Positions 1 through 63,833 of a stretch of DNA of 64,000 nucleotides are shown here, in pieces. This DNA comes from Streptomyces sp. F001. GTDB taxonomy: Bacteria > Actinomycetota > Actinomycetes > Streptomycetales > Streptomycetaceae. The translations under genes were made by a program, and so were the position numbers. The DNA is taken from assembly GCF_004187715.1 (NCBI RefSeq), contig NZ_QZWF01000008.1:1-64000 (forward strand), in the 5' to 3' direction. Position 1 is the stretch's first letter. Each line of letters opens with the position of its first letter. The notes beneath the pieces are model-generated. The model had not been told where the DNA came from and made no database searches. It was given only the letters and a program-made list of their open reading frames with translations.

Positions 1-24
1 GGCCACCACCCCTCAACGACGGCG

Positions 25-483
25 CTACGCGCCGACCCATTCTTCGGTCCCGTCCGAGAACTTCTGGTGCTTCCAGATCGGCACCTCGTGCTTGAGGTCG
101 TCGATGAGCTTGCGGCAGGCCTCGAAGGCCTCCCCGCGGTGCGGACACGACACGCCGACGACGACGGCGAGGTCCCCGACCTTCAGATCCCCCACACGGT
201 GCACGGCCGCCAGCGCCCGCACCGGGAACTCGGCGACGACCTTCTCGGCGATCCGCCGCATCTCGGCCTCGGCCGTCGGGTGGCAGGAGTATCCGAGCTC
301 GTCCACGTCGGCTCCCCCGTCGTGGTTCCGCACGGTCCCCACGAACAGCGCGGTCCCGCCGGCGGCGTCGTCCCCGACGGCTCGGAAGACCTCGTCGAGG
401 GAGAGCGGTGTCTCACGGATACCGATCAGCTTGATGGGATCCTGCGCGCCCTGCTCACCGGAATGATCGTTCATGGCAGCCAT
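25..483 (-). CDS. moaE: Molybdopterin synthase catalytic subunit MoaE
   Basis: Large subunit of molybdopterin synthase, which with thiocarboxylated MoaD converts cyclic pyranopterin phosphate to molybdopterin in the cytoplasm. The 152-residue product has the MoaE hallmarks: GTALFVGTVRNHDGG near residue 45, a basic AVHRVGDLKVGD stretch, CPHRGEAFEACRKLIDDLK and the C-terminal VPIWKHQKFSDGTEEWV, which carries the active-site lysines. Length is normal for the family. ATG at 483 was chosen because the N-terminus there looks like other actinobacterial MoaE; ATG 474 is possible and sits 11 nt behind a GGAG. No moaD is adjacent. It is divergent from lipA. Confidence 0.93.
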   Translation of the reverse strand: MAAMNDHSGEQGAQDPIKLIGIRETPLSLDEVFRAVGDDAAGGTALFVGTVRNHDGGADVDELGYSCHPTAEAEMRRIAEKVVAEFPVRALAAVHRVGDLKVGDLAVVVGVSCPHRGEAFEACRKLIDDLKHEVPIWKHQKFSDGTEEWVGA

Positions 484-608
484 GGCTCCATCGTGCCTCA
501 CGCGTCGGACACCGGGAAACGGGGATTGCACCCGGCACGCGCGTGTGCTGATCGGAGTCTCCTACGGTCGGCTCACGTAGCTGCGGGCAGTCGTGCCGCT
601 GGGGCGAT

Positions 609-665
609 GGGATCCCCCGCTCATGGGGGTCCCCCCGCTCGAGCGAAGCCGAGAGTGGGGGAGGG
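609..665. repeat. GC-rich imperfect palindrome, Streptomyces interspersed type
   Basis: The moaE-lipA intergenic region (about 376 bp) contains this imperfect palindrome: runs of five to six C with CGCTC-type arms pair with GAGAGTGGGGGAG. From memory, near-identical GC-rich elements recur between genes in streptomycete genomes. No ORF with plausible codon use is seen across 484-859. The lipA promoter should lie just downstream, with a possible TACCCT at 815-820. Confidence 0.6.
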
Positions 666-859
666 TGGGCGCAGCGGCACCCCGCAGCACCGGGCTGCGC
701 AATCCCCCGCCCCCAGCACCGACGCCGGGCACCGGGCACCGGGCACCGCCCGGACGCCGGGAATGCACCCCGGTTCCGCGAGGTTGGCCACCCCGGGGAC
801 CGAAAACGCACGGGCGTACCCTGGTGTACGCCGAAGAATCGAAGCTACAGGGAGCCGAC

Positions 860-1825
860 GTGTCCGCAGTCGCACCCGACGGACGCAAGATGCTGCGCCT
901 GGAGGTCCGCAACAGCCAGACCCCCATCGAGCGCAAGCCCGAGTGGATCAAGACCCGGGCGAAAATGGGTCCCGAGTACACGAAGATGCAGAACCTCGTG
1001 AAGAGCGAGGGCCTGCACACGGTCTGCCAGGAAGCCGGCTGCCCCAACATCTACGAGTGCTGGGAGGACCGCGAGGCCACGTTCCTCATCGGCGGCGACC
1101 AGTGCACCCGGCGCTGCGACTTCTGCCAGATCGACACCGGCAAGCCCGAGGCGCTCGACCGCGACGAGCCCCGCCGCGTCGGCGAGTCCGTGGTCACCAT
1201 GGACCTGAACTACGCCACCATCACCGGCGTCGCCCGCGACGACCTGGCGGACGGCGGCGCCTGGCTGTACGCCGAGACCGTGCGCCAGATCCACCAGCAG
1301 ACCGCGCACCGCGAGGCCGGCCGGACCAAGGTCGAGCTGCTCGCCCCCGACTTCAACGCGGTCCCGGAGCAGCTCGAGGAGGTCTTCTCCTCGCGCCCCG
1401 AGGTCTTCGCGCACAACGTCGAGACGGTGCCCCGGATCTTCAAGCGGATCCGCCCCGGCTTCCGCTACGACCGCTCCCTGAAGGTCATCACCGCGGCCCG
1501 TGACTACGGCCTGGTCACCAAGTCCAACCTGATCCTCGGCATGGGCGAGACCCGCGAGGAGGTCAGCGACGCGCTGCAGCAGCTGCACGACGCCGGCTGC
1601 GAGCTGGTCACCATCACGCAGTACCTGCGCCCGTCCGTGCGCCATCACCCCGTGGAGCGCTGGGTCAAGCCGCAGGAGTTCGTGGAGCTGAAGGAGGAGG
1701 CCGAGCAGATCGGCTTCTCCGGTGTCATGTCCGGCCCGCTGGTCCGCTCCTCTTACCGCGCCGGTCGCCTCTACCAGATGGCGATCGAGAAGCGTGGTAC
1801 GTACGTCGCCACCCAGGCCGTCTGA
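860..1825 (+). CDS. lipA: Lipoyl synthase LipA
   Basis: Radical-SAM enzyme that inserts two sulfurs into protein-bound octanoyl chains to make the lipoyl cofactor of 2-oxoacid dehydrogenases and GcvH. The 321-residue product has both iron-sulfur signatures: auxiliary C56-x4-C61-x5-C67 and the radical-SAM C82-x3-C86-x2-C89 (CTRRCDFC). The C-terminal RSSYRAG serine ligand motif is present at [12 protein letters not shown]. The GTG start at 860 follows AGGGAG by 5 nt; the frame stays open upstream but lacks family similarity. Its usual partner lipB (octanoyltransferase) is not next to it here. Confidence 0.97.
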
Positions 1826-1993
1826 CCCACCGTCACACGGGCGCTCCCCGCGGCTGTTACGACAATCGTGTGAATTCGCGCACAAGCGGCTACCCGTGAG
1901 TAGTGACCGATTCGACGCGGTCCTGACCGTCCTCGCAGATAGGGGCATACGTCAGGGCCGCGTCAGCGTTTCGACCCCCCGCATCAAGGCTTC

Positions 1994-2034
1994 ATTGGTG
2001 TTTGACCGGTCGGTCACGCCCTGGTAACACCAAT
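1994..2034. promoter_or_regulatory. Nested inverted repeat upstream of the 66-aa gene
   Basis: Outer 9-bp perfect arms ATTGGTGTT (1994-2002) and AACACCAAT (2026-2034) enclose a second dyad, TGACCG-GT-CGGTCA (2003-2016). It lies in the 274-bp gap between lipA and the small gene at 2100. It could be a regulator site or an RNA structure; nothing in the sequence decides between them. Confidence 0.45.
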
Positions 2035-2099
2035 CAGTGACCCTGGACTCACGCCACGTAAACCCGGCCCCGAAGCCGTACCGAGGGGGGACCTCCACC

Positions 2100-2300
2100 A
2101 TGCAGGCCGCGCCCGTTCGCGCCACAGCGATCCCGTCCTTCACCACCGCCCTGCGCGCCGTCGAGTCGCTGCTGATGAGCAGCGGCCAGCGCACCGCCCG
2201 CCGCAACGCCTGGACCTCCGTTCTGGAGGACCGTCGCCGGGCCAAGGACCGGGTCGAGACGCAGCGGGTGGTGGAGCAGGTCCTCGCCGGCCGTTCCTGA
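2100..2300 (+). CDS. Small conserved actinobacterial protein (66 aa), function unknown
   Basis: Short, basic, soluble protein starting MQAAPVRATAIPSFTTALRA, with a helical, Arg-rich second half (GQRTARRNAWTSVLEDRRRA). A GGGGGG run lies 8 nt before the ATG. It has no signal peptide, membrane segment or catalytic motif. From memory, streptomycetes carry a small gene in this place between lipA and the DUF4191 gene, which supports it being real. I do not recognise a function. The helical, charged C-terminal half could bind a protein or nucleic acid, but that is a guess. Confidence 0.7.
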   Translation: MQAAPVRATAIPSFTTALRAVESLLMSSGQRTARRNAWTSVLEDRRRAKDRVETQRVVEQVLAGRS

Positions 2301-2336
2301 AGCCGCACTGCCGTCGAAGGCACTCCGGGAGCCACG

Positions 2337-2342
2337 TAGACT
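2337..2342 (+). promoter_or_regulatory. -10 hexamer TAGACT of a likely leaderless promoter
   Basis: TAGACT ends exactly 6 nt before the ATG at 2349, and no Shine-Dalgarno sequence is present, so transcription probably starts at or next to the start codon. Confidence 0.55.
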
Positions 2343-2348
2343 CATGGC

Positions 2349-3053
2349 ATGGCGAGGAAGGAAACCGCAGCGGACGCTGCGAACCCCGGGCGACTGAAGC
2401 AGATCGCTCTGACCTACAAAATGACCCGCAGGGCCGACAAGACGATCGGTCTTGTACTCGCAGCAGTAGGAATCGTCACCTTCGGTGTCTTCCTCGCGAT
2501 CGGTTTCCTGATCGGTCACCCCATCTATCTCGGCATCCTGGGCCTCCTGCTCGCCTTCCTCGCGACGGCGATCGTCTTCGGACGCCGGGCCGAGCGGGCC
2601 GCCTTCGGGCAGATGGAGGGCCAGCCGGGCGCCGCCGCGGCCGTGCTGGACAACATCGGCAGGGGGTGGACGACGACCCCCGCGGTGGCGATGAACCGCA
2701 GCCAGGACGTGGTGCACCGGGCCGTCGGCAAGGCCGGCATCGTGCTGGTCGCCGAGGGCAACCCGAACCGGGTGAAGAGTCTGCTGGCCGCCGAGAAGAA
2801 GAAGATGAACCGGGTCGTCGCGGACGTGCCGGTGCACGACCTGATCGTCGGCACGGGCGAGGACACGGTCGAGCTGAAGAAGCTGCGCACGACCATGATG
2901 AAGCTGCCGCGCGCGCTGACCGGGCCGCAGGTCACCGCGACCAACGACCGGCTGCGGGCGATGGGCGACCTGATGAGCAACATGCCGCTGCCGAAGGGTC
3001 CGATGCCCAAGGGCATGCGGATGCCGAAGGGCGGCGGGCCGAAGGCCCGGTAA
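2349..3053 (+). CDS. DUF4191 integral membrane protein
   Basis: A 234-residue protein of the actinobacterial DUF4191 family. Its N-terminus is charged (MARKETAADAANPGRLKQIA), followed by YKMTRRADKTIGLVL, two adjacent membrane segments at about residues 36-56 and 58-78, then the conserved GRRAERAAFGQMEGQPGAAA and a cytoplasmic tail rich in Lys, Met and Pro at the end (MPKGMRMPKGGG). Family members occur near lipA/lipB and glnA in actinobacteria. The molecular role is unknown. The gene is convergent with the RDD gene across a strong hairpin. A TAGACT hexamer 6 nt before the ATG suggests a leaderless transcript. Confidence 0.88.
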   Translation: MARKETAADAANPGRLKQIALTYKMTRRADKTIGLVLAAVGIVTFGVFLAIGFLIGHPIYLGILGLLLAFLATAIVFGRRAERAAFGQMEGQPGAAAAVLDNIGRGWTTTPAVAMNRSQDVVHRAVGKAGIVLVAEGNPNRVKSLLAAEKKKMNRVVADVPVHDLIVGTGEDTVELKKLRTTMMKLPRALTGPQVTATNDRLRAMGDLMSNMPLPKGPMPKGMRMPKGGGPKAR

Positions 3054-3071
3054 GGCCGTCGGCTCACATCA

Positions 3072-3122
3072 CTCATGGGCCGGGCCCCGGAACCTTCGCG
3101 GTTCCGGGGCCCGGTCCATGAG
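3072..3122. terminator. Bidirectional terminator hairpin
   Basis: Arms of about 21 bp built from CATGGGCCGGGCCCCGGAAC and its complement, with one mismatch, around a TTCGC loop. It sits between the convergent DUF4191 and RDD genes. Confidence 0.85.
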
Positions 3123-3148
3123 TATGTGGGGTCTGAATATCCGGGAGG

Positions 3149-3619
3149 TCAGATCCTGACCTCGACCGTGCGCGCCAGCCGGTCGTGCAGGCCGCGGCCG
3201 TCGCGGTCCCAGATCAGCGCGGGGAGGACCACGCACAGCAGGACCGTGCGCAGCAGGGCGCGGCCGGGGTGGACGGTGCCCGTGTCGAGGGCGACCACGC
3301 GCAGGCCGAAGATGCGCTTGCCGAGAGTGACGCCGATCGTACCGACGGTCAGGGCGCTCATGACGAAGAAGATCAGCAGGGTCCAGTTGCCGGTCGTCTG
3401 GCCGCGGTAGCCGTCCGTGATCAGGCTGTATGCGATCATGAAGCACAGACCCCAGTCCACGGCCAGCGCGCCGAGCCGCCGGCCCGGGCGGGCGATCGAG
3501 CCCGGCCCTTCCTCCGGCAGTCCGAGCTGCTCGCCCCGGTAACCGAAGTCGGCACCCGCGTCCTCCAAGGCCGCGCGCGGGCCGGAGAGCCATGATCCGA
3601 TTGCTTGCCTCTTGTCCAC
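3149..3619 (-). CDS. RDD family membrane protein
   Basis: A 156-residue protein of the RDD family. It has the family signature of Arg-Asp/Asp in the first membrane helix (ARPGRRLGALAVDWGLCF), a second hydrophobic segment (WTLLIFFVMSALTVGTIGVT), the conserved LGKRIFGLRVVALD loop and a C-terminal WDRDGRGLHDRLART. RDD proteins are small membrane proteins of poorly defined role; some act in Na+/H+ exchange. The GTG start at 3619 is preceded at 6 nt by TACCGT (3626-3631) and has no Shine-Dalgarno, a leaderless pattern like the convergent DUF4191 gene. Confidence 0.9.
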   Translation of the reverse strand: MDKRQAIGSWLSGPRAALEDAGADFGYRGEQLGLPEEGPGSIARPGRRLGALAVDWGLCFMIAYSLITDGYRGQTTGNWTLLIFFVMSALTVGTIGVTLGKRIFGLRVVALDTGTVHPGRALLRTVLLCVVLPALIWDRDGRGLHDRLARTVEVRI

Positions 3620-3625
3620 CCGACC

Positions 3626-3631
3626 ACGGTA
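3626..3631 (-). promoter_or_regulatory. -10 hexamer TACCGT of a likely leaderless promoter
   Basis: On the minus strand TACCGT is followed by 6 nt (GGTCGG) and then the GTG start of the RDD gene; no ribosome binding site is present. Confidence 0.5.
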
Positions 3632-3693
3632 CTGCGCCCGGATTTGACCGGGGTACGGCGGGGTCGTTCCGCGCTACCGTGGAACGGAGCCGG

Positions 3694-3731
3694 TTAACTT
3701 CTGCGAAACAAATGGGTCACGCCCGAGAAAT
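3694..3731 (+). promoter_or_regulatory. GlnR operator of glnA
   Basis: Four 5-mers are spaced by exactly 6 nt: TTAAC (3694), GAAAC (3705), GTCAC (3716) and GAAAT (3727). This matches the published Streptomyces GlnR consensus gTnAc-n6-GaAAc repeated twice. It lies about 100 bp upstream of the glnA start, so nitrogen-dependent activation of glnA is expected. Confidence 0.85.
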
Positions 3732-3827
3732 GACGCGTCCCTAGGGTCGAGGTCAGCGTGTGCCACCGCACTGGCCGCACGAACGAACTACCACCCCGGC
3801 GGGACGGTCGGGAGTAGGAGGAGCTGG

Positions 3828-5237
3828 ATGTTCCAGAACGCCGACGAGGCCAAGAAGTTCATCGCGGACGAGGACGTCAAGTTCATCGACGTCCGTTTCT
3901 GCGACCTGCCGGGCGTCATGCAGCACTTCACGGTGCCCGTCGAGGCGTTCGACCCGGACGACGAGCTCGCCTTCGACGGATCCTCGATCCGCGGCTTCCA
4001 GGCCATTCACGAGTCCGACATGGCGCTGCGCGCCGACCTGTCGACCGCCCGCGTCGACCCGTTCCGCCGCGACAAGACGCTCAACATCAACTTCTTCATC
4101 CACGACCCGATCACCGGCGAGCAGTACAGCCGTGACCCGCGGAACGTGGCGAAGAAGGCCGAGGCGTACCTGGCCTCCACCGGGATCGCCGACACCGCGT
4201 ACTTCGGCCCGGAGGCCGAGTTCTACGTTTTCGACAGCGTCCGCTTCAAGACGTCCGAGAACGAGTCCTTCTACCACATCGACTCCGAGGCGGGCGCCTG
4301 GAACACCGGTGCGCTGGAGGACAACCGCGGCTACAAGGTCCGCTACAAGGGCGGTTACTTCCCGGTCCCGCCGGTCGACCACTTCGCCGACCTGCGCGCC
4401 GAGATCTCCCTGGAGCTGAACCGCGCCGGCCTGCAGGTCGAGCGCCAGCACCACGAGGTGGGCACCGCCGGCCAGGCCGAGATCAACTACAAGTTCAACA
4501 CGCTGCTCGCCGCCGCCGACGACCTCCAGCTCTTCAAGTACATCGTGAAGAACGTCGCCTGGCGCAACGGCAAGACCGCGACCTTCATGCCGAAGCCGAT
4601 CTTCGGCGACAACGGCTCGGGCATGCACGTCCACCAGTCGCTGTGGAGCAACGGCGACCCGCTGTTCTACGACGAGCAGGGCTACGCCGGCCTGTCGGAC
4701 ACCGCTCGCTACTACATCGGCGGCATCCTCAGGCACGCTCCGTCGCTGCTCGCCTTCACCAACCCGACGGTGAACTCCTACCACCGTCTGGTGCCGGGCT
4801 TCGAGGCGCCGGTGAACCTGGTGTACTCGCAGCGCAACCGCTCCGCCGCGATGCGTATCCCGATCACCGGCTCCAACCCGAAGGCCAAGCGCGTCGAGTT
4901 CCGTGCGCCCGACTCCTCCGGCAACCCGTACCTGGCGTTCTCCGCGCTGCTCCTCGCGGGCCTGGACGGCATCAAGAACAAGATCGAGCCGGCCGAGCCG
5001 ATCGACAAGGACCTGTACGAGCTGGCTCCCGAGGAGCACGCGGGCGTTCCGCAGGTCCCGACCTCGCTCCCGGCCGTCCTCGATTCCCTCGAGGCCGACC
5101 ACGAGTTCCTTCTCCAGGGCGACGTCTTCACCGCCGACCTGATCGAGACGTGGATCGACTTCAAGCGCACGAACGAGATCGCTCCGCTGCAGCTGCGTCC
5201 GCACCCGCACGAGTTCGAGCTCTACTTCGACGTCTGA
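3828..5237 (+). CDS. glnA: Type I glutamine synthetase GlnA
   Basis: Dodecameric GS-I beta type enzyme making glutamine from glutamate, ammonia and ATP. The 469-residue product carries the beta-Grasp N-domain ([19 protein letters not shown]), the latch [16 protein letters not shown], the catalytic [11 protein letters not shown], the ammonia-site loop [21 protein letters not shown], the NRSAAMRIP glutamate loop and [12 protein letters not shown] at the end. Tyr397 in [11 protein letters not shown] is the adenylylation site used by GlnE, which is encoded at 37676-40669. GGAGGAG lies 5 nt before the ATG. It is monocistronic: a GlnR operator upstream and a strong terminator downstream. Confidence 0.98.
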
Positions 5238-5271
5238 GAAAGCCGGCGCTTTCGACGTCCGAGATGCGGTG

Positions 5272-5309
5272 AGGGCCGCCACCTGAAGCACTTCAGGTGG
5301 CGGCCCTCG
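5272..5309. terminator. glnA terminator
   Basis: Perfect 18-bp arms (GAGGGCCGCCACCTGAAG and complement) with a tiny CA loop, about 35 nt after the glnA stop. Confidence 0.9.
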
Positions 5310-5336
5310 CCGTGTGCCTCCGGTCCGGCGGAATCG

Positions 5337-5624
5337 CTAGCCCACCACGATCACCACGGGGCCGCGGTCGAAGCGGTCGAAGCGGTCGAAGTGGTCGTAG
5401 CCGTTGAAGTACCCGAACCGGTCGCCGAACCGGTTCCCGAAGCGGTCGCCGAAGCCGTTGCAGTCGCCCCACCAGTCACAGTGGCCCCAGTTCGTGGGAG
5501 TGCCGGCTGTGGTGGCCGGGGTGGCCGCCGAGGCCGTACCTGCTGTGCCGATCGCGGCGCCACCAGCCATCAGTACGCCGATGGCGGACAGCGCGAGGAG
5601 ACGCCTAGCACGTGGTGCGTTCAT
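5337..5624 (-). CDS. Small secreted protein with Phe-Asp/Gly-Arg repeats
   Basis: A 95-residue protein with a Sec signal peptide (MNAPRARRLLALSAIGVLMA, likely cleaved after TASA-A). The mature part holds a short Thr/Ala stretch, a pair of Cys in GHCDWWGDCNGF, then low-complexity repeats of the types FGDRFGN, FGDRFGYFNGYDH and FDRFDRFDRG, and a hydrophobic end PVVIVVG. The DNA has 9-bp tandem repeats of GAAGCGGTC. GGAAGG lies 5-10 nt before ATG 5624; the upstream ATG (5648) would break the signal peptide. I do not recognise a family. Aromatic/Asp/Arg repeats with a beta-prone tail suggest a self-associating surface protein; this is inference. Confidence 0.75.
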   Translation of the reverse strand: MNAPRARRLLALSAIGVLMAGGAAIGTAGTASAATPATTAGTPTNWGHCDWWGDCNGFGDRFGNRFGDRFGYFNGYDHFDRFDRFDRGPVVIVVG

Positions 5625-5887
5625 GGAGATACCTTCCTTCCATCCCATCGTGCGGTGATTGCACGAGCCGGACGGATGGCCGCGGCCGCAGCGGTAGAAG
5701 TACGGCGCGGTCGTCGGTGTTGCCGCCTGAGTGCGAGGAGTACGTTTTCAGCCGCCGGCGTCTCCACGGGAATCCCGCCGACGGAAGGCAATCCCAGGTG
5801 CGGCCTTCTCCTAAAGGCTAGTCTTCCCTCGATCACTCAGCATCTTGAATGACAAGAGGCATGGAGCGAAGGGGTATGGAGCGGGGG

Positions 5888-6145
5888 ATGTCGGAAAAGG
5901 ATCACTGGGAGCACGAGTTCGACCACAAGTGGGCGAACGACGCCGAGCACAAGGAGCCCTCCGCCCGGGCCCGGATGCTCGCCGCCCGCTGGAAGCACAA
6001 TCCGCCGGAGCCGGTGCCCTTCCGGGGCGACCCCGATCCGGTGCGGCCCCGCCGGTCGGGATGGATATCGACGGCCGTGGTCCTGGGGTGCGTCGTCGCG
6101 GTGATCGTTCTGCTGGGGTACATCAACTTCCGCGCGCCGTACTAG
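5888..6145 (+). CDS. Small single-pass membrane protein, unknown function
   Basis: An 85-residue protein, MSEKDHWEHEFDHKWANDAE at the N-terminus, with a strongly charged cytoplasmic part, a Pro-rich stretch and one C-terminal membrane helix (about residues 59-80) ending NFRAPY. Start 5888 was chosen because GGAG (5878-5881) lies 6 nt upstream; the in-frame ATGs at 5849, 5861 and 5876 are poorer. It looks like a C-tail-anchored protein. It lies upstream of htpX on the same strand, about 110 bp away, without clear coupling. Confidence 0.7.
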   Translation: MSEKDHWEHEFDHKWANDAEHKEPSARARMLAARWKHNPPEPVPFRGDPDPVRPRRSGWISTAVVLGCVVAVIVLLGYINFRAPY

Positions 6146-49136: not shown

Positions 49137-49262
49137 GGTCCCCCCCTCTGGGGGAGTTTGAGGAGCGGGGATCCAGGGGGCAGAGCCCCCTGGCGGGGTC
49201 GAAGGGGCGGAGCCCCTGGAGGAGGGACGGGTAGGGGCGGCGGGGGCGAGAAACCCCGCCGC
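49137..49262. repeat. GC-rich interspersed element with two hairpins between nadE and MFS gene
   Basis: Two adjacent dyads: CCAGGGGG-CAGAG-CCCCCTGG (49173-49193) and AGGGGC-GGA-GCCCCT (49203-49217). From memory, the combination is a common intergenic element in streptomycetes. It lies between convergent genes and could act as a bidirectional terminator. Confidence 0.65.
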
Positions 49263-55131: not shown

Positions 55132-55169
55132 GGACAGCCCGCCGATCTTCCCCCGTCGGCGGGCTGTCC
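55132..55169. terminator. panB terminator
   Basis: 14-bp arms GGACAGCCCGCCGA and TCGGCGGGCTGTCC, loop TCTTCCCCCG. It starts 18 nt after the panB stop. Confidence 0.88.
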
Positions 55170-55321
55170 CCTCTTTGCGCCTGAACCGGCGCCGCTCTCG
55201 CGGACGTGGTTGCTCGCCGTCGTGGTGCCTCAGTTGATGGTTGCGGCCGTCTTCGGGGAGTTGTCGGTGCTGTCGGCAGTCTGTCGGTCGTTTGTCGGTG
55301 GCGTCTGAAAGCGTCGTCCCC

Positions 55322-56347
55322 ATGACACGAATCGACAAGAACCCCGGCGGCAGCGAAGTGGCCGTCACCGTGCGGGGGCTGGTCAAGCACTACGGCGAGA
55401 CCAAGGCGCTGGACGGCGTCGACCTGGATGTGCGTGAGGGCACCGTGATGGGTGTGCTCGGGCCGAACGGGGCCGGGAAGACCACCCTCGTACGGATTCT
55501 GTCCACTCTGCTGGCCCCGGACGCCGGGCAGGCGACCGTGGCCGGCTACGACGTCGTACGGCAGCCCCGGCAGCTGCGCCGGGTGATCGGGCTGACCGGG
55601 CAGTACGCCTCCGTGGACGAGAAGCTGCCGGGCTGGGAGAACCTGTACATGATCGGGCGGCTGCTCGATCTGCCCCGCAAGGACGCACGGGCCCGGGCCG
55701 ACGAGCTGCTGGAGCGGTTCTCGCTCACCGAGGCCGCGAAGCGGCCGGCGGCCACCTACTCCGGCGGTATGCGCAGGCGGCTCGACCTGGCCGCCTCGAT
55801 GATCGGGCGACCGCAGGTGCTGTTCCTCGACGAGCCCACCACCGGGCTGGACCCGCGGACCCGCAACGAGGTGTGGGACGAGGTCAAGCGCATGGTCGGG
55901 GACGGCGTCACCGTGCTGCTGACCACCCAGTACATGGAGGAGGCCGAGCAGTTGGCCTCCGAGCTGACCGTCGTCGACCGGGGCAAGGTCATCGCCAATG
56001 GCGGGATCGAGGAGCTGAAGGCCAAGGTCGGCGGGCGGACACTGCGGGTCCGGCCGGCCGATCCGGTGCAGTTGCGGCCGCTCGCCCGCTCCATCGACGA
56101 GCTGGGCATCACCGGTCTGGCCACGACCACCGTGGACACCGAGGGCGGCGCCGTGCTGGTGCCGATCCTGAGCGACGAGCAGCTGACCGCCGTGGTCGGC
56201 GCCGTCACCGCGCGCGGCATCACGCTCGCTTCCATCAGCACCGAACTGCCCAGCCTGGACGAGGTGTTCCTCTCCCTCACCGGCCACCGCGCCAGTGCCC
56301 CGCAGGACGCCGTGCCCGCCGACGACCGTCAGGAGGTCGCCGTATGA
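55322..56347 (+). CDS. DrrA-type ABC transporter ATPase
   Basis: A 341-residue ATPase of the daunorubicin-resistance family. Walker A GPNGAGKTTLV, Q-loop LTGQYASVDEKLPGWENLYM, signature YSGGMRRRLDLAASM, Walker B LFLDEPTTGLDPRTRN, then a C-terminal domain with LDEVFLSLTGH, the DrrA tail. Couples with the following permease (ATGA overlap). Possible export of an antibiotic or lipid. The ATG at 55322 has only a weak SD. Confidence 0.94.
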   Translation: MTRIDKNPGGSEVAVTVRGLVKHYGETKALDGVDLDVREGTVMGVLGPNGAGKTTLVRILSTLLAPDAGQATVAGYDVVRQPRQLRRVIGLTGQYASVDEKLPGWENLYMIGRLLDLPRKDARARADELLERFSLTEAAKRPAATYSGGMRRRLDLAASMIGRPQVLFLDEPTTGLDPRTRNEVWDEVKRMVGDGVTVLLTTQYMEEAEQLASELTVVDRGKVIANGGIEELKAKVGGRTLRVRPADPVQLRPLARSIDELGITGLATTTVDTEGGAVLVPILSDEQLTAVVGAVTARGITLASISTELPSLDEVFLSLTGHRASAPQDAVPADDRQEVAV

Positions 56348-57153
56348 CCGCCGCAACCGTCACCACACAGGACGCCCGGATCACGCTGCGCGGGCATGTG
56401 CGGCACACCGGCGCCCTGATCCGCCGCAACCTGCTGTGGATCCGGCAGGACCCCGAGTCGATGTTCGACGCGCTGCTGATGCCGGTCGTCTTCACCCTGC
56501 TGTTCGTGTACGTCTTCGGCGGCTCGATCGGGCAGGCCCTGGGCGGCGGGCAGGACGGGTACGTGCAGTACGTGATCCCCGGCATGATCGCGATGATGAG
56601 CATGACGCTGTCCCAGGGCGTCGGCACCGGCTTCAGCCAGGACTTCAACTCCGGTGTCATGGACCGTTTCCGGTCCCTGCCGATCGGGCGCGGCTCGGTG
56701 CTCTTCGCGAAGATCTCGGTCGAGCTGGTCCGGATGCTGTTCGCGACGACCGTGCTGATGATCGTCGCCGTCCTGGTCGGCTTCGACATCGCCAACTGGC
56801 CCGGTGTGTTCGCGGCCGTGGCCCTGTCCACGGCGTTCGCCTCGTCGATCATGTGGGTGTTCCTCACCCTGGGCGTGATCCTCAAGAACGCGCAGTCCGT
56901 GCAGGCGATGGGCTTCCTGGTGCTGTTCCCGCTGCAGTTCGGCTCGTCGATCTTCGCTCCGACGGCGTCGATGCCGGGCTGGCTGCAGACGTTCACCGAC
57001 TACAACCCGCTGTCCACGCTCGCTGACGCGGCGCGCGGGCTGATGGTGGGCGGACCGGTCGCGCACGACCTGTGGGTGACCCTCGGCTGGTCGGTGGCGA
57101 TCACGGCGGTGATGGCGCCGGTCGCGATCCACAAGTTCCGCACCAAGAACTGA
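56344..57153 (+). CDS. DrrB-type ABC transporter permease
   Basis: A 269-residue ABC-2 permease: HTGALIRRNLLWIRQDPESM, six membrane segments, FVYVFGGSIGQALGGGQDGY, VMDRFRSLPIGRGSVLFAKI and PTASMPGWLQTFTDYNPLST. The ATG at 56344 overlaps the upstream stop (ATGA), so ATPase and permease are coupled. With its partner it probably exports an amphiphile. Convergent with the SARP gene, 6 bp between stops. Confidence 0.93.
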   Translation: MTAATVTTQDARITLRGHVRHTGALIRRNLLWIRQDPESMFDALLMPVVFTLLFVYVFGGSIGQALGGGQDGYVQYVIPGMIAMMSMTLSQGVGTGFSQDFNSGVMDRFRSLPIGRGSVLFAKISVELVRMLFATTVLMIVAVLVGFDIANWPGVFAAVALSTAFASSIMWVFLTLGVILKNAQSVQAMGFLVLFPLQFGSSIFAPTASMPGWLQTFTDYNPLSTLADAARGLMVGGPVAHDLWVTLGWSVAITAVMAPVAIHKFRTKN

Positions 57154-57159
57154 CGCGCC

Positions 57160-60100
57160 TCACACCAGGGCGGCGGCCTCCTTCGCGGTGAGGCTGCCGC
57201 CCTCGGCGTACGCCGCCGCGAACTCGTCGGCGGAGAGCGCACCGCGTACGGCCGCCAGGGCACGGTCGCGTGTCCGGCGCTCCAGGGAGGGGTGCCGATG
57301 CCCGGGCGGCACCAGCGCGTCGGCGGCCCCCAGGCAGCGGGCGGCGTCGCCGGCGTCGCGTCCGCCGTTGCTCCCGGCCATCGCCAGGGCGGCGGTGGTC
57401 AGGAAGGCCGACCTCATCTGCGGGGCCATGGCCAGGGACAGCGGGTCGTCGGCCCGCTCCAGCGCACGGCGGATCTTCTCCCGGGCCTCCTCGCTGTGGC
57501 CTTCGACGGCGTCCAGCCAGGCCTCCTGGCCGAGGATGAAGGCGTCGAAGACGAAGAAGTGCGCGACGGTGAAGTCCTCGCGCAGCAGCCGGAGGTGTTC
57601 GCGTGCCTCGGCAATCCGGCCGGTGATGCTGAGCCACCCGGAGAGGATGATCCGGCTGAACGGCATCGCCTCGGTGTGCGCGTCCCCCACGCCGTCGAGC
57701 ACCTCCCGCAGAAGGCGCTCGCCCCGCTCGGCCTCACCGGCCTCCAGCAGCGCGCTGCCCAGCCGGGCGGAGAGGACCGCGTGCTGGGCGCGGGCGCCGA
57801 GCCGCGTGGCGTGCTCCATCGCCGCCTCGTAGTCGGCGGCGGCCTTGAGGTACTCCCCCTTGCGTTCGTGGGCGTCGGCGCGCGCGGAGAGCGCCTCGGC
57901 GCTGCCCCAGGTGTCACCGAGACGTTCGTAGATCTCCAGCGACTCGTCGGCGTCCCGGCCGGCCTCGCCCACCCGGTCGTGGCGGTGGGCGAGAAGGTTG
58001 GCGCGCAACTGCAGGCTGGCGGCGAGTTCCCAGTCGGATCCCGGGGTCCGGCGGCAGGTGTCGACGGCGGCGTCGAGGATCGTGCCCAGACGGTCGACGC
58101 CGCCGGTCAGCATCACGGCGTAGGTCCACATCATGCCGGGGCTGCGGCAGACCTGTGGGAGGCCGGGTTCGTAGACCTCGGTGATGACCTGCAGCTTCCG
58201 CTGGGCCTCGGGGGTCTGCCAGGAGTCCAGCTCGGTGTCCATGCAGGCGAGATGGCCCAGATGGACGCCGCGTCGGGCCTCGGCGAGGACCTCGCCGGCC
58301 ATGGGGGGCGGCTCGGCGGTGCACCGCTGCCACACCGGGGCGGCGCGGCGGACCGGGTCGGTGAAGGGGTCGGGGCCGAGGTCCATGACCGCGCGGCACC
58401 AGTTGCGGCCCTCGATGCGCAGATCGCGCATCTGCCAGTACCAGGCCAGCGACAGCACCAGGCACAGCCCTTCCTGCTCGTCGCGTTCGGCGACGGCGTG
58501 GCGCAGGGCGGTGCGCAGGTTCTCGTACTCGCGCTGGAGCCGTTCGACGGCAGCCAGTTGGCCGGGGCCGCGCAGCAACGGGTCGGTGGTGCGGGCGAGT
58601 TCGCGGTAGTACGTCAGGTGCGCGCGTTCGGTGTCGCGGCGTCGGCCGGCCTCGTCGAGCCGTTCGCCGGCGTACTCGGCGACGGTCTCCAGGAGCCGGT
58701 AGCGCATCTCGCCGTCGCCGGAGGGAGCGGCCACGACGAGCGACTTGTCGACGAGGGAGCCGAGCGCGTCCAGGGCGGCGGGCCCGCAGACGGCCTCGGC
58801 GGCGGCGAGGTCGCAGCCGCCGGCGAACACCGACAGGCGGCTCAGGACGTCCCGTTCGTCCTCGTCGAGCAGGTCCCAGGACCAGTCGACGACGGCCCGC
58901 AGGGTCTGCTGGCGGGGCAGCACGGTCCGGCTGCCGGAGGTAAGGAGGCGGAAGCGGTCGTCGAGCCGGTCGGCGATCTGGCGGGGCGTGAGCATCCGCA
59001 GCCGGGCGGCGGCGAGTTCGATGGCGAGCGGCAGGCCGTCGAGGCGGCGGCAGATCTCCGCGCACGCCTCGGGATCGTCGTCGACCCGGAAACCGGGCCG
59101 GGCGGCCGCCCCGCGGTCGGCGAGCAGCCGCAGCGCGTACGGCTCCGGCAGCGGCTCCACCGGCCGCAGCACCTCCCCCGGTACGCCGAGGGGTTCGCGG
59201 CTGGTGGCCAGCACCGTCAGCGCCGCGCAGCGTTCCAGCAGCTGCTCGACGAGCCGGGCGGCGGCGTCGACGACGTGCTCGCAGTTGTCGAGGACGATCA
59301 GCATGCGACGGCGGGCGCAGTGCTCGACGAGGCGTTCGACGGGGTCGTCGTGGCGGTCGCCGCCGACGGCCCGGAGCTCCTCTGCGCCGGCGCCGTGCAG
59401 CACGGTCTCCCGGGCGCCGATCGCGGTGAGCACGGCCTCGGGCACGGCGGCGGGGTCGTCGACCGGCGCGAGCTCGGCGAGCCAGACGCCGTCGCGGGCC
59501 GCGTCCCGCACGGTCTCGGCGGCCTCCTGCGACAGCCGTGTCTTCCCGGCGCCGCCGGGCCCGAGCAGCGTGACGAGGCGGGCGGTGGCGAGGTCGCCGC
59601 GAATGGCCTCGATGTCGTCGTCGCGGCCGACGAAGGAGGTTAGGCGGGCGCGCAGGTTGCCGAGAGGCCGGCTCGGGGCCTGCGGAACGTCCTCTGGGCT
59701 CAGCAACTCCCCGTGCAATGCCCGCAGTTCGGCCCCGGGATCGGCCCCGAGCCGGTCCGCGAGCAGTTGTCGTACGTCTTCATAGGCGGCCAGCGCTTCA
59801 GCGGCCCGCCCGGCGTCGCGCAGAGCGCGCAGGCGCAGGGCCTGAAGGGGCTCGTCCAGGGGATGACTGTCGCACAGGGCGGTCAGCTCGGGCAGGGACT
59901 GTTCGGCGTGGCCCAGGGCTAGGCCAGCGGTGTGGCGGGCGCGGAGGGCGTCCAGGCGCCGGGTCTCGCAGCGGGCCGCCTCGGCGGTGCGGTCGGGGAG
60001 GTCGGCGAGGGCGGGGCCGCTCCACAGGGTGAGGGCGTCATCGAGGACGACGGCCGCCTTCGCGTGGTCGCCGTCGGCGAGGGCACGCATGCCGTCGCCG

Positions 60101-60411
60101 ACGAGCCGCTCGAACCGGTGCAAATCGATGTCGTCGGCGGGGGCGACGAGCCGGTACCCGCCCTCCACGGACTCGACGGCATCCGTCCCGAGCGCCCTGC
60201 GCAGCCGCCCCACCAGCGCCTGCACCGCGCCCGTCGCATCGACGGGCGGATCCCTGTCCCACACCTCGTCGACCAGGAGACTGACAGGCACGGTACGGCC
60301 GGGCCGCAGGGCCAGCACGGTCAACAGGGCACGCAACCGCGCCCCGCCGACCGGAACGGGGGTGCCGTCGGTGCGGAGTGCCTGAGTGGTACCGAGGATG
60401 CGATAACGCAC
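57160..60411 (-). CDS. SARP/AfsR-family regulator with NB-ARC and TPR domains
   Basis: A 1083-residue regulator: OmpR-like winged helix at 1-90 (RLRALLTVLALRPGRTVPVS, VGRLRRALGTDAVESVEGGY), BTAD domain at 95-240 (LHRFERLVGDGMRALADGDH, LREPL-like SHPLDEPLQALRLRALRDAG), an ATPase with P-loop LLGPGGAGKTRL about 280 and LIVLDNCEHV, and TPR-rich C-terminus. SARPs activate antibiotic or development genes; targets here are unknown. GTG 60411 has no SD and GAGAAT 6 nt upstream. Its neighbour is an ABC exporter on the other strand. Confidence 0.9.
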   Translation of the reverse strand: MRYRILGTTQALRTDGTPVPVGGARLRALLTVLALRPGRTVPVSLLVDEVWDRDPPVDATGAVQALVGRLRRALGTDAVESVEGGYRLVAPADDIDLHRFERLVGDGMRALADGDHAKAAVVLDDALTLWSGPALADLPDRTAEAARCETRRLDALRARHTAGLALGHAEQSLPELTALCDSHPLDEPLQALRLRALRDAGRAAEALAAYEDVRQLLADRLGADPGAELRALHGELLSPEDVPQAPSRPLGNLRARLTSFVGRDDDIEAIRGDLATARLVTLLGPGGAGKTRLSQEAAETVRDAARDGVWLAELAPVDDPAAVPEAVLTAIGARETVLHGAGAEELRAVGGDRHDDPVERLVEHCARRRMLIVLDNCEHVVDAAARLVEQLLERCAALTVLATSREPLGVPGEVLRPVEPLPEPYALRLLADRGAAARPGFRVDDDPEACAEICRRLDGLPLAIELAAARLRMLTPRQIADRLDDRFRLLTSGSRTVLPRQQTLRAVVDWSWDLLDEDERDVLSRLSVFAGGCDLAAAEAVCGPAALDALGSLVDKSLVVAAPSGDGEMRYRLLETVAEYAGERLDEAGRRRDTERAHLTYYRELARTTDPLLRGPGQLAAVERLQREYENLRTALRHAVAERDEQEGLCLVLSLAWYWQMRDLRIEGRNWCRAVMDLGPDPFTDPVRRAAPVWQRCTAEPPPMAGEVLAEARRGVHLGHLACMDTELDSWQTPEAQRKLQVITEVYEPGLPQVCRSPGMMWTYAVMLTGGVDRLGTILDAAVDTCRRTPGSDWELAASLQLRANLLAHRHDRVGEAGRDADESLEIYERLGDTWGSAEALSARADAHERKGEYLKAAADYEAAMEHATRLGARAQHAVLSARLGSALLEAGEAERGERLLREVLDGVGDAHTEAMPFSRIILSGWLSITGRIAEAREHLRLLREDFTVAHFFVFDAFILGQEAWLDAVEGHSEEAREKIRRALERADDPLSLAMAPQMRSAFLTTAALAMAGSNGGRDAGDAARCLGAADALVPPGHRHPSLERRTRDRALAAVRGALSADEFAAAYAEGGSLTAKEAAALV

Positions 60412-60517
60412 GGGACCATTCTCGCTTGTCCTCCAGCCGTGGGGGCCTTCCCCCTGACACCCTCAGACTCCAATGGCTTAACTCAGCTAACTCTCAGTGG
60501 CTTGGATACATATGCGC

Positions 60518-60530: not shown

Positions 60531-61961
60531 ATGGGAAGACCCCCGAGGGCACTCGTCACCGTCCGCCTGACCGTTCAGACCGAGTCGACGACCAGCCCTG
60601 AACGTCAGGTCGAAGAGTGCAAGTCCTTTTGCGAGCTGCGCGGTTGGGAGGTCGTCGGCATCGCCAGAGACCTCTCTGTCTCCGCCACCGCAGTCCCGCC
60701 ATGGAAGCGTCCGGAGCTATCCCGGTGGCTCGACGACCGTGCCCCCGAATTCGATGTCATCGTCTTCTGGCGACTCGATCGGTTCGTTCGCCGGGTCAGT
60801 GACCTGCACCAGATGATCGAGTGGGCCGAGCGTCATGGAGACAAGGGACTTGCCTCCGCCACCGAGCCATTCGATCTCACAAGTCCGACCGGAAAGGCGA
60901 CGGCTGCCCTGATCGCCGCCTTCGCCCAGATGGAAGCTCAGGCCGCCGCCGAGCGGGTCGCCTCATCGCGTGCGCACTTGCTCACGTCCGCACGATGGGG
61001 CGGCAGTTCACCGCCCTTCGGGTATCGCACTTACTCGAAGGACGGCGCCCGCTATCTGGAGATCAACCCGGGAACGGCAGTCATCGTCCGGGAAGCCGCT
61101 CAACGCGTCATCGACGGTGAGTCGATCAATGCCATCTGCCGAGATTTCGAAGAACGGGGGGTTCCTTCCCCTGCGGACACGTACCAACGGAACAAGTCCG
61201 GCAAGGATTTCGTCTGGTATCCCCGAACGTTGAAGGGAATCCTCACCTCCCCCACCCTCCTGGGTTGGAAGACGCGCAGCGAGGATGTTCCCGGCAAGAA
61301 GTACAAGAGGCGTGTCCTGGTCCACGATCAGGACGGCCGACCCATCCGCGTGGCCGAAGGGGTACTGAGCCAGGACGTATTCGACCGTCTTCAGGACGCG
61401 CTGGCCGATTCCGCAACCCCGATCAGCCGACGTTCCGCAAACCCCAGGACGCCGCTTCTCCATGTGATCAAGTGCGGAGGGTGCGGCAAGAACCTGCAGC
61501 TTCACACGACGAAGAAGCGACGCAAAGACGGGACGTACAGGGTTACCGAGAAGATTCGCTGCCTCTCAAGGGTTGGGTCCCCGCCATGCCCCGGCTACGT
61601 GTTCTCGCCCGACCAGGACATCGTCGCTCCCGTCCTGCACATGCTGGTCAGAGCAGTCGGAGATGCGCCTGTCACCCGCCGCGTGTACGTCCAACTAGCC
61701 GAGGGCAGGGACGATTCGAGGAATCTGGGACACCGCGCCACCGAGGATCACTGGCAGTTCGTGCCGCTCGGCACAACGTTCGGGGAGCGGTGGCAGAACA
61801 TGGGAATCACCGAGATCGGCAAGGATCTGGTCCAGGCCGGTATCACGATCAGATGCCACCCTCGCGAAAGCGGTGGCCATGTTCTGGAGATCCCCGACGA
61901 CTTCCAGGAGCGGCTTGCCAAGTTCCTGGGGCGGTCGGACCCGGCAGTGGTTGGGGGATGA
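60531..61961 (+). CDS. Large serine recombinase, catalytic Ser replaced by Thr
   Basis: A 476-residue phage/ICE-type integrase. The resolvase domain (1-150) has VTVRLTVQTESTTSPERQVE, FDVIVFWRLDRFVRRVSDLH, ATEPFDLTSPTGKATAALIA and FAQMEAQAAAERVASSRAHL. Recombinase domain (160-290): GSSPPFGYRTYSKDGARYLE, INAICRDFEERGVPSPADTY and WYPRTLKGILTSPTLLG. Zinc ribbon: KCGGCGKNLQL and later IRCLSRVG, PPCPGY. The catalytic Ser of the R-L-S motif is Thr14 (ACC), so strand cleavage is doubtful. No other mobile-element genes flank it. Confidence 0.88.
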   Translation: MGRPPRALVTVRLTVQTESTTSPERQVEECKSFCELRGWEVVGIARDLSVSATAVPPWKRPELSRWLDDRAPEFDVIVFWRLDRFVRRVSDLHQMIEWAERHGDKGLASATEPFDLTSPTGKATAALIAAFAQMEAQAAAERVASSRAHLLTSARWGGSSPPFGYRTYSKDGARYLEINPGTAVIVREAAQRVIDGESINAICRDFEERGVPSPADTYQRNKSGKDFVWYPRTLKGILTSPTLLGWKTRSEDVPGKKYKRRVLVHDQDGRPIRVAEGVLSQDVFDRLQDALADSATPISRRSANPRTPLLHVIKCGGCGKNLQLHTTKKRRKDGTYRVTEKIRCLSRVGSPPCPGYVFSPDQDIVAPVLHMLVRAVGDAPVTRRVYVQLAEGRDDSRNLGHRATEDHWQFVPLGTTFGERWQNMGITEIGKDLVQAGITIRCHPRESGGHVLEIPDDFQERLAKFLGRSDPAVVGG

Positions 61962-62074: not shown

Positions 62075-62872
62075 ATGACCATCACCTCTCGTACGAGCCA
62101 ACAGCGGATCAGCCCTGTCTTCATCGGGATCGCTGCCGTCACGGCAGTCACCGGCTGGGCGACATGGACAGGCTTCGCATCATCTCCAGGGCTTGCCGTC
62201 TTTCTCTTCGTCACCTCGGCCTGGGTGGTCTCTCTATGTCTGCACGAGTACGCACACGCCCGCACCGCCCTGCACAGTGGCGACATCACTGTCGGGGCGA
62301 AGGGCTACCTGAGCCTGAATCCTCTCGCTTATACGCACGCCCTGCTCAGCATCGTGCTACCCGTACTCTTCGTGATCATGGGCGGGATCGGGCTCCCCGG
62401 CGGTGCCGTCTTCATCGAGCGGGGCCGGATCCGGGGGCGGTGGCGGCACAGTCTGATCTCGGCGGCGGGTCCCCTGACGAACGTGCTGTTCGCGGCCGTG
62501 TGCACGGCACCGTTCTGGCTGGACGCGCTGGACGGCGTGCCGCGGGACTTCCAGTACGCGCTGGCGTTCCTCGCGCTGCTCCAGGTGACGGCCGCCATCC
62601 TGAACTTCCTGCCGGTGCCGGGCCTGGACGGCTACGGCGTCATCGAGCCCTGGCTGTCGTACAACATCCGCCGCCAGGTGGAGCCGCTCGCGCCCTTCGG
62701 GCTGCTGCTGGTGTTCGCGCTGCTGTGGATCCCGGCACTGAACGGCGCGTTCTTCGACCTGGTCGACGCCGTGCTGCGGGGCCTCGGGATCGACGATGTC
62801 GACACGTACTGCGGCTACGAGCTGTACCGCTTCTGGCTCGGCACCAACGAGTACTGCTCGGTCAGCCCGTGA
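62075..62872 (+). CDS. Site-2-protease-like M50 metalloprotease
   Basis: A 265-residue membrane protein with about six spans. The zinc motif is VVSLCLHEYAHARTALHSGD (H-E-x2-H) and the second motif is FLPVPGLDGYGVIEPW (N-x2-P-x4-L-D-G). It begins TITSRTSQQRISPVFIGIAA; AGGAG lies 9 nt before ATG 62075. Ending GTNEYCSVSP. Probably an intramembrane protease for anti-sigma or signal-peptide processing. The 3' end overlaps the small gene on the other strand by 11 bp. Confidence 0.9.
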   Translation: MTITSRTSQQRISPVFIGIAAVTAVTGWATWTGFASSPGLAVFLFVTSAWVVSLCLHEYAHARTALHSGDITVGAKGYLSLNPLAYTHALLSIVLPVLFVIMGGIGLPGGAVFIERGRIRGRWRHSLISAAGPLTNVLFAAVCTAPFWLDALDGVPRDFQYALAFLALLQVTAAILNFLPVPGLDGYGVIEPWLSYNIRRQVEPLAPFGLLLVFALLWIPALNGAFFDLVDAVLRGLGIDDVDTYCGYELYRFWLGTNEYCSVSP

Positions 62873-63050
62873 CCGACGAGTTGCGCCGAGTGCTCCGGCC
62901 GCGCTTCAGGTAGTACCAGGTCATGTTCGACGACAGTCCCGCGAGCAGCACCCACACGACGCCCAGCCAGCTGCCCTGCACGAAGGAGATGACGGCCGCG
63001 ACGACGGCGAGGACGCAGACGGCAAGGGCGTAGAGGGCGAGGCGGGGCAT
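62862..63050 (-). CDS. Small membrane protein (62 aa)
   Basis: Two hydrophobic segments (LALYALAVCVLAVVAAVISF and GVVWVLLAGLSSNMTWYYLK) and a basic tail (KRGRSTRRNSSVTG). AGGAG lies 9 nt before the ATG at 63050. No family recognised. The last 11 bp overlap the M50 gene on the opposite strand. Confidence 0.72.
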   Translation of the reverse strand: MPRLALYALAVCVLAVVAAVISFVQGSWLGVVWVLLAGLSSNMTWYYLKRGRSTRRNSSVTG

Positions 63051-63116: not shown

Positions 63117-63833
63117 TCATACGTCCGTGACGCGCAGTCCCGCGTGCGCTTTGTAGCGGCGGTTGACGGAGATCAGGTTGGCGACCAGCGACTCCACCTG
63201 GTGGGCGCCTCGCAACCGGCCGGCGAAGATGCCCCGCATACCGGGGATGCGACCGGCCAGCGCCTGCACGATCTCGACGTCGGCCCGCTCCTCGCCGAGG
63301 ACCATGACGTCGGTGTCGATCTCCTCGATCTCCGGGTCCTGGAGCAGCACGGCGGACAGATGGTGGAAGGCGGCGGTGACCCGCGCGTCCGGCAGCAGCG
63401 CGGCGGCCTGCTCGGCGGCGCTGCCCTCCTCCGGCTTCAGCGCGTAGGCGCCCTTCTTGTCGAAGCCGAGCGGGTTGACGCAGTCGACGACCAGCTTGCC
63501 GGCCAGCACCTCGCGCAGGGATTCGATGGTCTTGCCGTGGCCCTCCCACGGCACGGCGACGATCACGATGTCGCTGCGCCGCGCGCACTCGGCGTTGTCG
63601 GCGCCCTCGACGCCGTACCCCAGCTCCTCGGCGGCGGCCTGTGCGCGCTCCGTCGCCCGGGAACCGATGATCACCTTCTGGCCGGCCCGAGCGAGCCGGT
63701 AGGCGAGGCCCTTGCCCTGCGGCCCGGTCCCGCCGAGCACGCCGACCACCAGCCCGGAGACGTCGGGCAGGTCCCAGGGGTCCTTGGCGGGGGCCTTCGC
63801 CGGCTTCTGTGCAGCACTGTCGGTAGAGGTCAT
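63117..63833 (-). CDS. npdG: F420:NADPH oxidoreductase (NADPH-dependent F420 reductase)
   Basis: A 238-residue enzyme that transfers hydride between NADPH and coenzyme F420. A disordered Ala/Lys/Pro N-tail leads to the dinucleotide fold LVVGVLGGTGPQGKGLAYRL, VIIGSRATERAQAAAEEL, IVIVAVPWEGHGKTIESLRE, GKLVVDCVNPLGF and HHLSAVLLQDPEIEEIDTDV. The family is NADP_oxidored F420-type. A TAAAGT lies 6 nt before the ATG and no SD is present, so a leaderless start is likely. Confidence 0.94.
   Translation of the reverse strand: MTSTDSAAQKPAKAPAKDPWDLPDVSGLVVGVLGGTGPQGKGLAYRLARAGQKVIIGSRATERAQAAAEELGYGVEGADNAECARRSDIVIVAVPWEGHGKTIESLREVLAGKLVVDCVNPLGFDKKGAYALKPEEGSAAEQAAALLPDARVTAAFHHLSAVLLQDPEIEEIDTDVMVLGEERADVEIVQALAGRIPGMRGIFAGRLRGAHQVESLVANLISVNRRYKAHAGLRVTDV

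Follow-up and report, generated by a model that had tools for sequence, protein, structure and literature searches.

A chromosomal relative of serine integrases with threonine at the catalytic serine position, without a coiled-coil and under purifying selection in Streptomyces

The window analysed here, a stretch of 64,000 nucleotides of Streptomyces sp. F001, carries an open reading frame for a large serine recombinase (LSR) between a divergent AfsR-like regulator gene and an M50 peptidase gene (Table 1). The 476-amino-acid protein matched the Pfam models Resolvase (PF00239, 83.2 bits against a cut-off of 23.3) and Recombinase (PF07508, 50.1 bits against 21.1), and among the PHROGs families it matched the integrase phrog_95 (E 4e-91). 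Four zinc-type cysteines are present, although the Pfam zinc-ribbon model scored 20.5, short of its cut-off of 25.3; NCBIfam matches were all far below cut-off. The closest solved relative was Bxb1 integrase, both by sequence (9iu2; phmmer, E 5e-50) and by fold, when the search was made with an AlphaFold model of the window protein (E 2.6e-30, 28% identity). The model (pLDDT 80.0, pTM 0.42) has the LSR fold, with a linker of low confidence. The window protein is a homolog of the serine integrase family, and it is not classed as an active serine integrase because two defining features fail, namely the nucleophilic serine and the coiled-coil.

Table 1. Features of the LSR locus, by position in the window
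Feature	Position	Strand	Basis or remark
ABC-AfsR block, inverted in loci L013 and L015 (approximate limits)	55167..60487	.	ends without inverted repeats in the 7 loci tested
ABC transporter pair (ATPase, permease)	55319..57153	+	Pfam
AfsR-like regulator (BTAD), divergent neighbour	57160..60411	-	Pfam BTAD, E 2.3e-40
Conserved upstream motif (candidate operator, promoter part or attachment half-site)	60489..60510	+	common to 11 orthologs
LSR gene, 476 aa (P0001), ATG start	60531..61961	+	open reading frame exactly at the place claimed earlier
Catalytic (resolvase) domain, residues 1-150 (limit set by us)	60531..60980	+	Pfam match to residues 15-149; dN/dS 0.138
Thr14 codon (ACC), at the place of the catalytic serine	60570..60572	+	opposite Bxb1 Ser10; Thr in 11 of 11 orthologs
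Zinc-ribbon cysteines C315, C318, C344, C353	61473..61589	+	invariant in the 24-row alignment A2
Short variable linker, approximately residues 388-405, where relatives carry the coiled-coil	61692..61745	+	residues 392-403 with pLDDT <50; dN/dS 0.596 (residues 384-402)
5′ part of the M50 gene sharing the LSR history	62075..62335	+	lower GC3, carrier-type sites
M50 peptidase gene, downstream neighbour	62075..62872	+	Pfam M50, 29.3 bits (cut-off 27.2)
NpdG, NADPH-dependent F420 reductase	63117..63833	-	TIGR01915, 262 bits (cut-off 149.8)

An earlier note on this DNA had described the recombinase as standing without element genes around it, and this holds for the neighbours that were tested (panB, the ABC pair, the AfsR/BTAD-type regulator, the M50 peptidase and NpdG). 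Pfam revealed no cargo genes among the neighbours, and a 62-amino-acid ORF at 62862-63050 is without a Pfam match. The location is fixed: the window gene, eight orthologs from a scan across species and the copies of genomes G106 and G147 all lie between the AfsR-like regulator and the M50 peptidase, and NpdG comes next in the carriers wherever the contig extends that far. The M50 gene is present in 274 of 295 Streptomyces genomes, and in all 34 fully read non-carrier loci the AfsR-like and M50 genes flank an LSR-free gap, which in some of them holds a different small ORF (by eye). None of these 34 loci has a convincing LSR remnant: the best tblastn match in the empty loci reached 26% identity at E 0.06, and blastn returned stretches of 21-50 bases, the best of which (25 bases, E 0.005) lies outside the AfsR-M50 gap. 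In locus L012 an additional stretch of about 1.9 kb (2321-4240) separates the LSR gene from the M50 gene. Seen by eye, the AfsR-LSR interval of L009 (5350-6000) has an extra small ORF of the kind found in some non-carriers and repeats part of the AfsR upstream region, which looks like the outcome of recombination between two arrangements. Resolvase-type domains occur at 12 places of the window genome, two of which have an in-frame TAG inside the Resolvase match (C100:3838-4293 and C2:30712-30993; L003 and L008).

Bxb1 integrase provides the reference for the catalytic position; the accessible part of PMC12884075 gives S10 as its catalytic serine and names R8, Q22, D81, R82, L83 and R85 as pocket residues. 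In the phmmer alignment, which is gap-free from residue 6 to past residue 45, Thr14 of the window protein lies opposite Bxb1 Ser10, with no other serine at the catalytic position, and the residue two after the conserved Arg12 is Thr and not Ser. This bears out what the earlier note had read from the sequence, threonine where serine integrases have their nucleophile, in the motif as it was quoted there. The pocket residues correspond to R12, Q26, D83, R84, F85 and R87; the sole change beyond the nucleophile is thus Leu to Phe, and Phe is present in 13 of 15 Ser-type relatives too.

Relatives were collected in several searches. A scan with one genome per species (84,980 species) used exact peptide patterns, which reach close relatives only, and returned eight relatives with 77-85% identity, all from Streptomyces and all with Thr. 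Among 392 Streptomyces genomes, 12 had a match at E <= 1e-75, seven of them at 78% identity or more (the window genome included) and five at 38-42%. After removal of repeats, where the same genome was counted once (G118 is L013, G408 is L010, G371 is L014, G405 is L012 and G678 is L016), 11 Streptomyces orthologs remained, 77-85% identical to the window protein. All 11 have Thr14, encoded by ACC in eight, by ACG in two and by ACT in one. The residue is therefore neither a sequencing error nor due to chance; with 11 species carrying it, misalignment and sequencing error were ruled out as its source. The other cellular relatives have Ser in all 28 cases that cover the catalytic column (six of the 34 do not cover it). 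Among 48 viral loci, 32 cover the column in the BLAST alignment, with 23 calls of Ser and nine of Thr. We rejected eight of the latter as a one-column slip of BLAST, the motif having Ser two after Arg; the ninth (L129) begins at a contig edge and is not judgeable. The MAFFT alignment A2, with 15 of the 48 viral loci, has Ser in 15 of 15. A DNA methyltransferase-like ORF was seen by eye near the gene of G353 (L154), which is among the closest Ser-type relatives. In the open-access literature we found no Ser-to-Thr mutant of this family, and no earlier report of a natural LSR with Thr at the predicted catalytic position.

The rest of the protein, taken to be intact in the earlier note, is not so, because the coiled-coil is missing. 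The interval from the fourth zinc cysteine to a conserved Trp measures 66-68 residues in all 11 orthologs versus 108-110 in 14 of 15 relatives, the phage Joe integrase included, and the part that is missing is the coiled-coil. The exception among the 15 relatives, L018, is Ser-type and has lost the coiled-coil as well. This LSR (L018 / L153, genome G041) belongs to another branch and has 59 residues in place of 108-110; the ORFs beside it appear cell-shape-like and rodA/PBP2-like, by eye only. Contacts between dimers are made by the coiled-coil, as described in the accessible parts of PMC3783163 and PMC5814800, and its deletion is given in the accessible part of PMC10754689 as leaving approximately 1.6-2.2% activity to LI integrase and none to phiC31 integrase.

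The reading frames of all 11 orthologs are intact, with 466-476 codons. Over 55 ortholog pairs, which are not independent, the median dN/dS was 0.187 at a median dS of 0.61, a sign of purifying selection. Within domain limits that we set ourselves, dN/dS amounted to 0.138 for the catalytic domain, 0.160 for the recombinase domain, 0.173 for the zinc part and 0.235 for the C-terminal part, with 0.596 for the linker that stands in place of the coiled-coil (residues 384-402, 54 pairs). The part under the strongest constraint is hence the catalytic domain, where 91 of 150 positions are invariant across the 11 orthologs. The 15 Ser relatives share 23 invariant columns in this domain, and at 21 of these the residue is unchanged in all 11 orthologs; the other two are column 70 and column 14, where Ser has become Thr. 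Without column 14, 21 of 22 were kept, compared with 70 of the 127 other columns (Fisher p = 0.0002). Fold and pocket have therefore been maintained, the nucleophile apart, and the orthologs combine a lost catalytic residue with a fold kept under selection, as seen from the dN/dS and the LSR-fold model. A kept pocket would fit selection on the fold, and an enzyme with a Thr nucleophile would be expected to look alike.

A search for distant copies in 394 genomes of the family added three (G708, G513 and G641), all at the AfsR-M50 locus, and 293 genomes of the order, overlapping the 394, contained no further copy. G708 is 54% identical to the window LSR and has both Ser and the coiled-coil. G513, from another genus, is 61% identical and has Thr together with the coiled-coil; its type was found in one of 35 genomes of that genus. 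G641 is 57% identical and lacks residues 1-167 as well as the coiled-coil. The relatives are thus graded, and the question of Ser or Thr in close relatives, raised in the earlier note, has a divided answer: among 14 copies at the locus, 12 have Thr, one has Ser and one is without the catalytic domain. The coiled-coil is present in two of the 14 and absent from 12. All 14 form one clade (support 100/100), within which the branching of G513 and G708, with the Ser copy nested among the Thr copies, has weak support (83/80); therefore one Ser-to-Thr change, two such changes, or one change and a reversion are possible. The tree program warned of long branches for both the 14-copy tree and the LSR gene tree. 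The LSR and M50 genes of G708 overlap, stop codon on start codon, as in what would be a coupled operon.

Carriers of the gene are rare among the genomes searched and are scattered on a tree of the flanking genes, where supported branches force at least eight changes (44 genomes with 10 carriers, L012 being dropped for low coverage; the bootstrap had not settled). The synonymous distances of the LSR gene and of the flanking genes do not agree (rho -0.34, n = 45 pairs; medians 0.61 vs 0.41). At the M50 gene, 26 sites distinguish the 11 carriers from the non-carrier majority, which was taken without L068 and L072; 25 of these sites are in nt 7-258. GC3 follows the same division: in the M50 genes beside the 11 orthologs it ranges from 0.72 to 0.89 up to nt 261 and from 0.92 to 0.98 beyond, while the 34 non-carriers have means of 0.95 and 0.97; the values are 0.78 and 0.99 in G708, 0.80 and 0.86 in G513, and 0.84 and 0.96 in G641. 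Both GC3 and the diagnostic sites break sharply at about nt 260. The mosaic therefore indicates a haplotype of about 1.9 kb, made up of the LSR gene and the M50 5′ end, that has passed between Streptomyces species. As exceptions, L009 and L010 have mostly non-carrier-type sites at nt 59-153 (in L009 up to 216), and G708, G513 and G641 are mixed at the diagnostic sites. The non-carriers L068 and L072 have a carrier-type tract at nt 239-255, the edge of the LSR haplotype, which is perhaps the trace of a lost copy. Homologous recombination and integration in the M50 gene fit the spread of the haplotype alike; integration predicts a displaced native M50 5′ end, and none was seen by eye upstream of the LSR gene.

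Just upstream of the LSR start codon the 11 orthologs have AACTCTCA, followed by a stretch like TTAGATACA. We searched seven carrier and three non-carrier genomes for AACTCTCAGN4TTRGATACA with three mismatches allowed, using the reversed pattern as a control. The motif is rare: it stands before the LSR gene in all seven carriers (exact in six, with two mismatches in one) and is absent from the three non-carriers. Four further matches, with 2-3 mismatches, were found in two of the seven carriers, and those two carriers each have a single match to the reversed pattern. The left part, GTAACTCTCA, is common to G708 and G513 at a like distance (by eye), where the best matches to the full motif have six and eight mismatches, respectively. 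From its sequence and place, the motif could serve as operator, attachment half-site or promoter element; in phage Joe, attP is located 18 bp before int, according to the accessible part of PMC5311408. The comparison of carriers with non-carriers, which the earlier note had proposed as a route to att sites, identified none. All 11 orthologs have ACTCTCA upstream and six of them have ACTC[ACT]CAG downstream; ACTCNCA is missing from the 300 bp upstream of the M50 gene in all 34 non-carriers. The edge of the LSR haplotype lies inside the M50 gene. Flanking direct repeats gave no clear attL and attR around an element, as they were at or near shuffle level within single genomes; even for the strongest ones (L009, L014), 3 of 40 shuffles were as good.

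Two carrier loci, L013 and L015 (positions 1-6000 of each), have the whole ABC-AfsR block reversed, with its ABC end facing the LSR gene, and the LSR might be regarded as the invertase of this block. Two of the 11 carriers have the inversion, as against none of the 115 non-carriers scored among the matches listed (Fisher p = 0.007; carriers and non-carriers were sampled differently, and L012 shows just the near end of the AfsR gene), and L013 and L015 are not sisters on the LSR gene tree, where 0 of 200 bootstrap trees give them a single origin. Orientation was scored with the ABC permease in 119 of the 150 M50 matches listed; 23 without a listed ABC row and eight with the ABC gene on another contig were dropped. 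However, no inverted repeats join the block ends, at least 13 of 200 shuffles scoring as well in each of the seven carrier loci tested, and the panB/ABC gap is also the breakpoint of another inversion in the non-carriers L082, L085 and L091. For these two reasons we do not ascribe the inversion to the LSR, which is probably not its cause, and we regard the role of a block invertase as highly improbable. A second block, which precedes the ABC genes on their upstream side and consists of MFS, endonuclease/phosphatase and MFS genes (with or without panB), is inverted in L014, L065, L082, L085 and L091, carriers and non-carriers both. A short dispersed repeat was found in the window (49177-49258), in L011 (458-522 and 5189-5260) and in L015 (5852-5927), occurring in the gaps beside the ABC-AfsR block of L011 and L015; two copies in L015 are in direct orientation, with 0 of 200 shuffles as good.

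We give about an even chance to the explanation that the window protein is a former integrase that has lost strand exchange and was kept as a DNA-binding, probably self-regulating protein. A site-specific integrase would have become resident at one chromosomal locus and would have lost strand exchange via two changes, the replacement of the nucleophilic Ser by Thr and the loss of the coiled-coil. Presumably it would still bind DNA as a dimer, as is expected from the retention of the catalytic fold, the active-site arginines, the recombinase domain and the zinc cysteines. Its likeliest target would be the conserved motif just before its start codon, at approximately the place of attP in an active relative, that of Streptomyces phage Joe; the bound LSR might repress its own promoter or adjust its output, and perhaps act likewise on the divergent AfsR-like gene. 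In favour of this explanation are the constancy of Thr14 over three codons in 11 of 11 orthologs, the coiled-coil missing from the same 11, and the same locus in 14 of 14 copies. The accessible parts of the sources add that phiC31 integrase S12A binds and synapses with no cleavage (PMC2810336), that LI integrase S10A gives no recombination (PMC10754689), and that a protein of tyrosine-recombinase fold, MrpR, acts as a repressor (PMC10516654). On the other side, the constrained catalytic domain and the kept arginines might be needless for a pure DNA binder, Ser to Thr is the mildest possible change, and the rare, scattered carriers are more like those of a mobile gene than of a useful resident. 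The gene can be lost, since G641 has lost its catalytic domain. The motif may be only a promoter.

The other explanations draw on the same observations. That the gene is a decaying relic, drifting after the loss of its element with a selection signal left from its active past, we consider rather unlikely. Loss of the nucleophile and the coiled-coil, the further loss of the catalytic domain in G641 and the rare, scattered carriers all agree with decay; but the 11 orthologs have remained open over their 466-476 codons at a median dS of 0.61, with a low dN/dS that is lowest in the catalytic domain, and the codon at position 14 varies while Thr is constant. The earlier note had offered a dead integrase, kept after element loss, and a domesticated DNA-binding protein as two fates. 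Intact frames and the dN/dS of 0.187 go against the former for the 11 orthologs, decay being seen in the distant G641, and the latter would seem the better fit to the sequences. Unlikely, too, is that the Thr protein is still an active recombinase, with the threonine hydroxyl as nucleophile, within a minimal element of about 1.9 kb in which the LSR would be the only complete gene and which would home to one site in the M50 gene, bringing a new M50 5′ end with it. Without a coiled-coil such a recombinase would be slow and without directionality. The scatter of carriers with its eight forced changes, the use of the same locus in two genera, the 34 non-carrier loci without a convincing remnant, the pocket columns kept outside column 14 and the sharp break near nt 260 of the M50 gene are what such an element would leave. 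However, no attL/attR pair stood out from shuffles, no displaced native M50 5′ end was seen by eye, the coiled-coil is missing, and spread of the haplotype via homologous recombination explains the mosaic equally.

Very unlikely, in our estimate, is a decoy, meaning an integrase that binds and does not cut, thereby poisoning the integrase of related incoming elements, and that is gained and lost like a defence gene. Scattered carriers would be expected of such a gene, and the inactive phiC31 S12A integrase does bind and synapse (PMC2810336, accessible part); but poor synapsis is expected of the window protein because its coiled-coil is missing, and 996 of 996 phage records are below 60% identity, the best listed being at 33%. 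PADLOC gave no match, and we rejected a known defence protein on that result.

If the preferred explanation, a former integrase kept for DNA binding, is true, the locus would offer a natural graded series in which a serine integrase gives up recombination at a single chromosomal site, with selection keeping the remainder of the integrase in 11 species. It makes testable whether Thr can act as the nucleophile in the LSR family, and whether serine integrases can turn regulator, as reported for MrpR (PMC10516654, accessible part). Those who mine genomes for integrases are warned that an intact-looking, well-scoring gene may have neither the catalytic Ser nor the synapsis arm.

Among known systems, Bxb1 integrase is like the window LSR in domain order and pocket residues, but it has Ser10, whereas the window LSR has Thr, no coiled-coil and no element around it. 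G708 shares the neighbours and the clade, and differs in having both the catalytic Ser and the coiled-coil, in being 54% identical and in its overlap of stop and M50 start codons. The integrases of phage Joe and other Streptomyces phages show 32-33% identity over 96-97% of the length (best 30 of 996 records); that of phage Joe, unlike the window LSR, retains Ser and the coiled-coil and is part of a phage. The phiC31 S12A mutant and the coiled-coil deletions are laboratory versions of both lesions, although, in the accessible parts of their sources, they have Ala and not Thr and a single lesion each (PMC2810336, PMC5814800, PMC10754689). The proposed end state is most readily compared with MrpR of Bacillus phage SPbeta, which, according to the accessible part of PMC10516654, has a recombinase fold, has lost catalysis and serves as a DNA-binding repressor. 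MrpR has the fold of a tyrosine recombinase and is not homologous to the window LSR, and its function was tested experimentally, whereas that of the window LSR is proposed from sequence.
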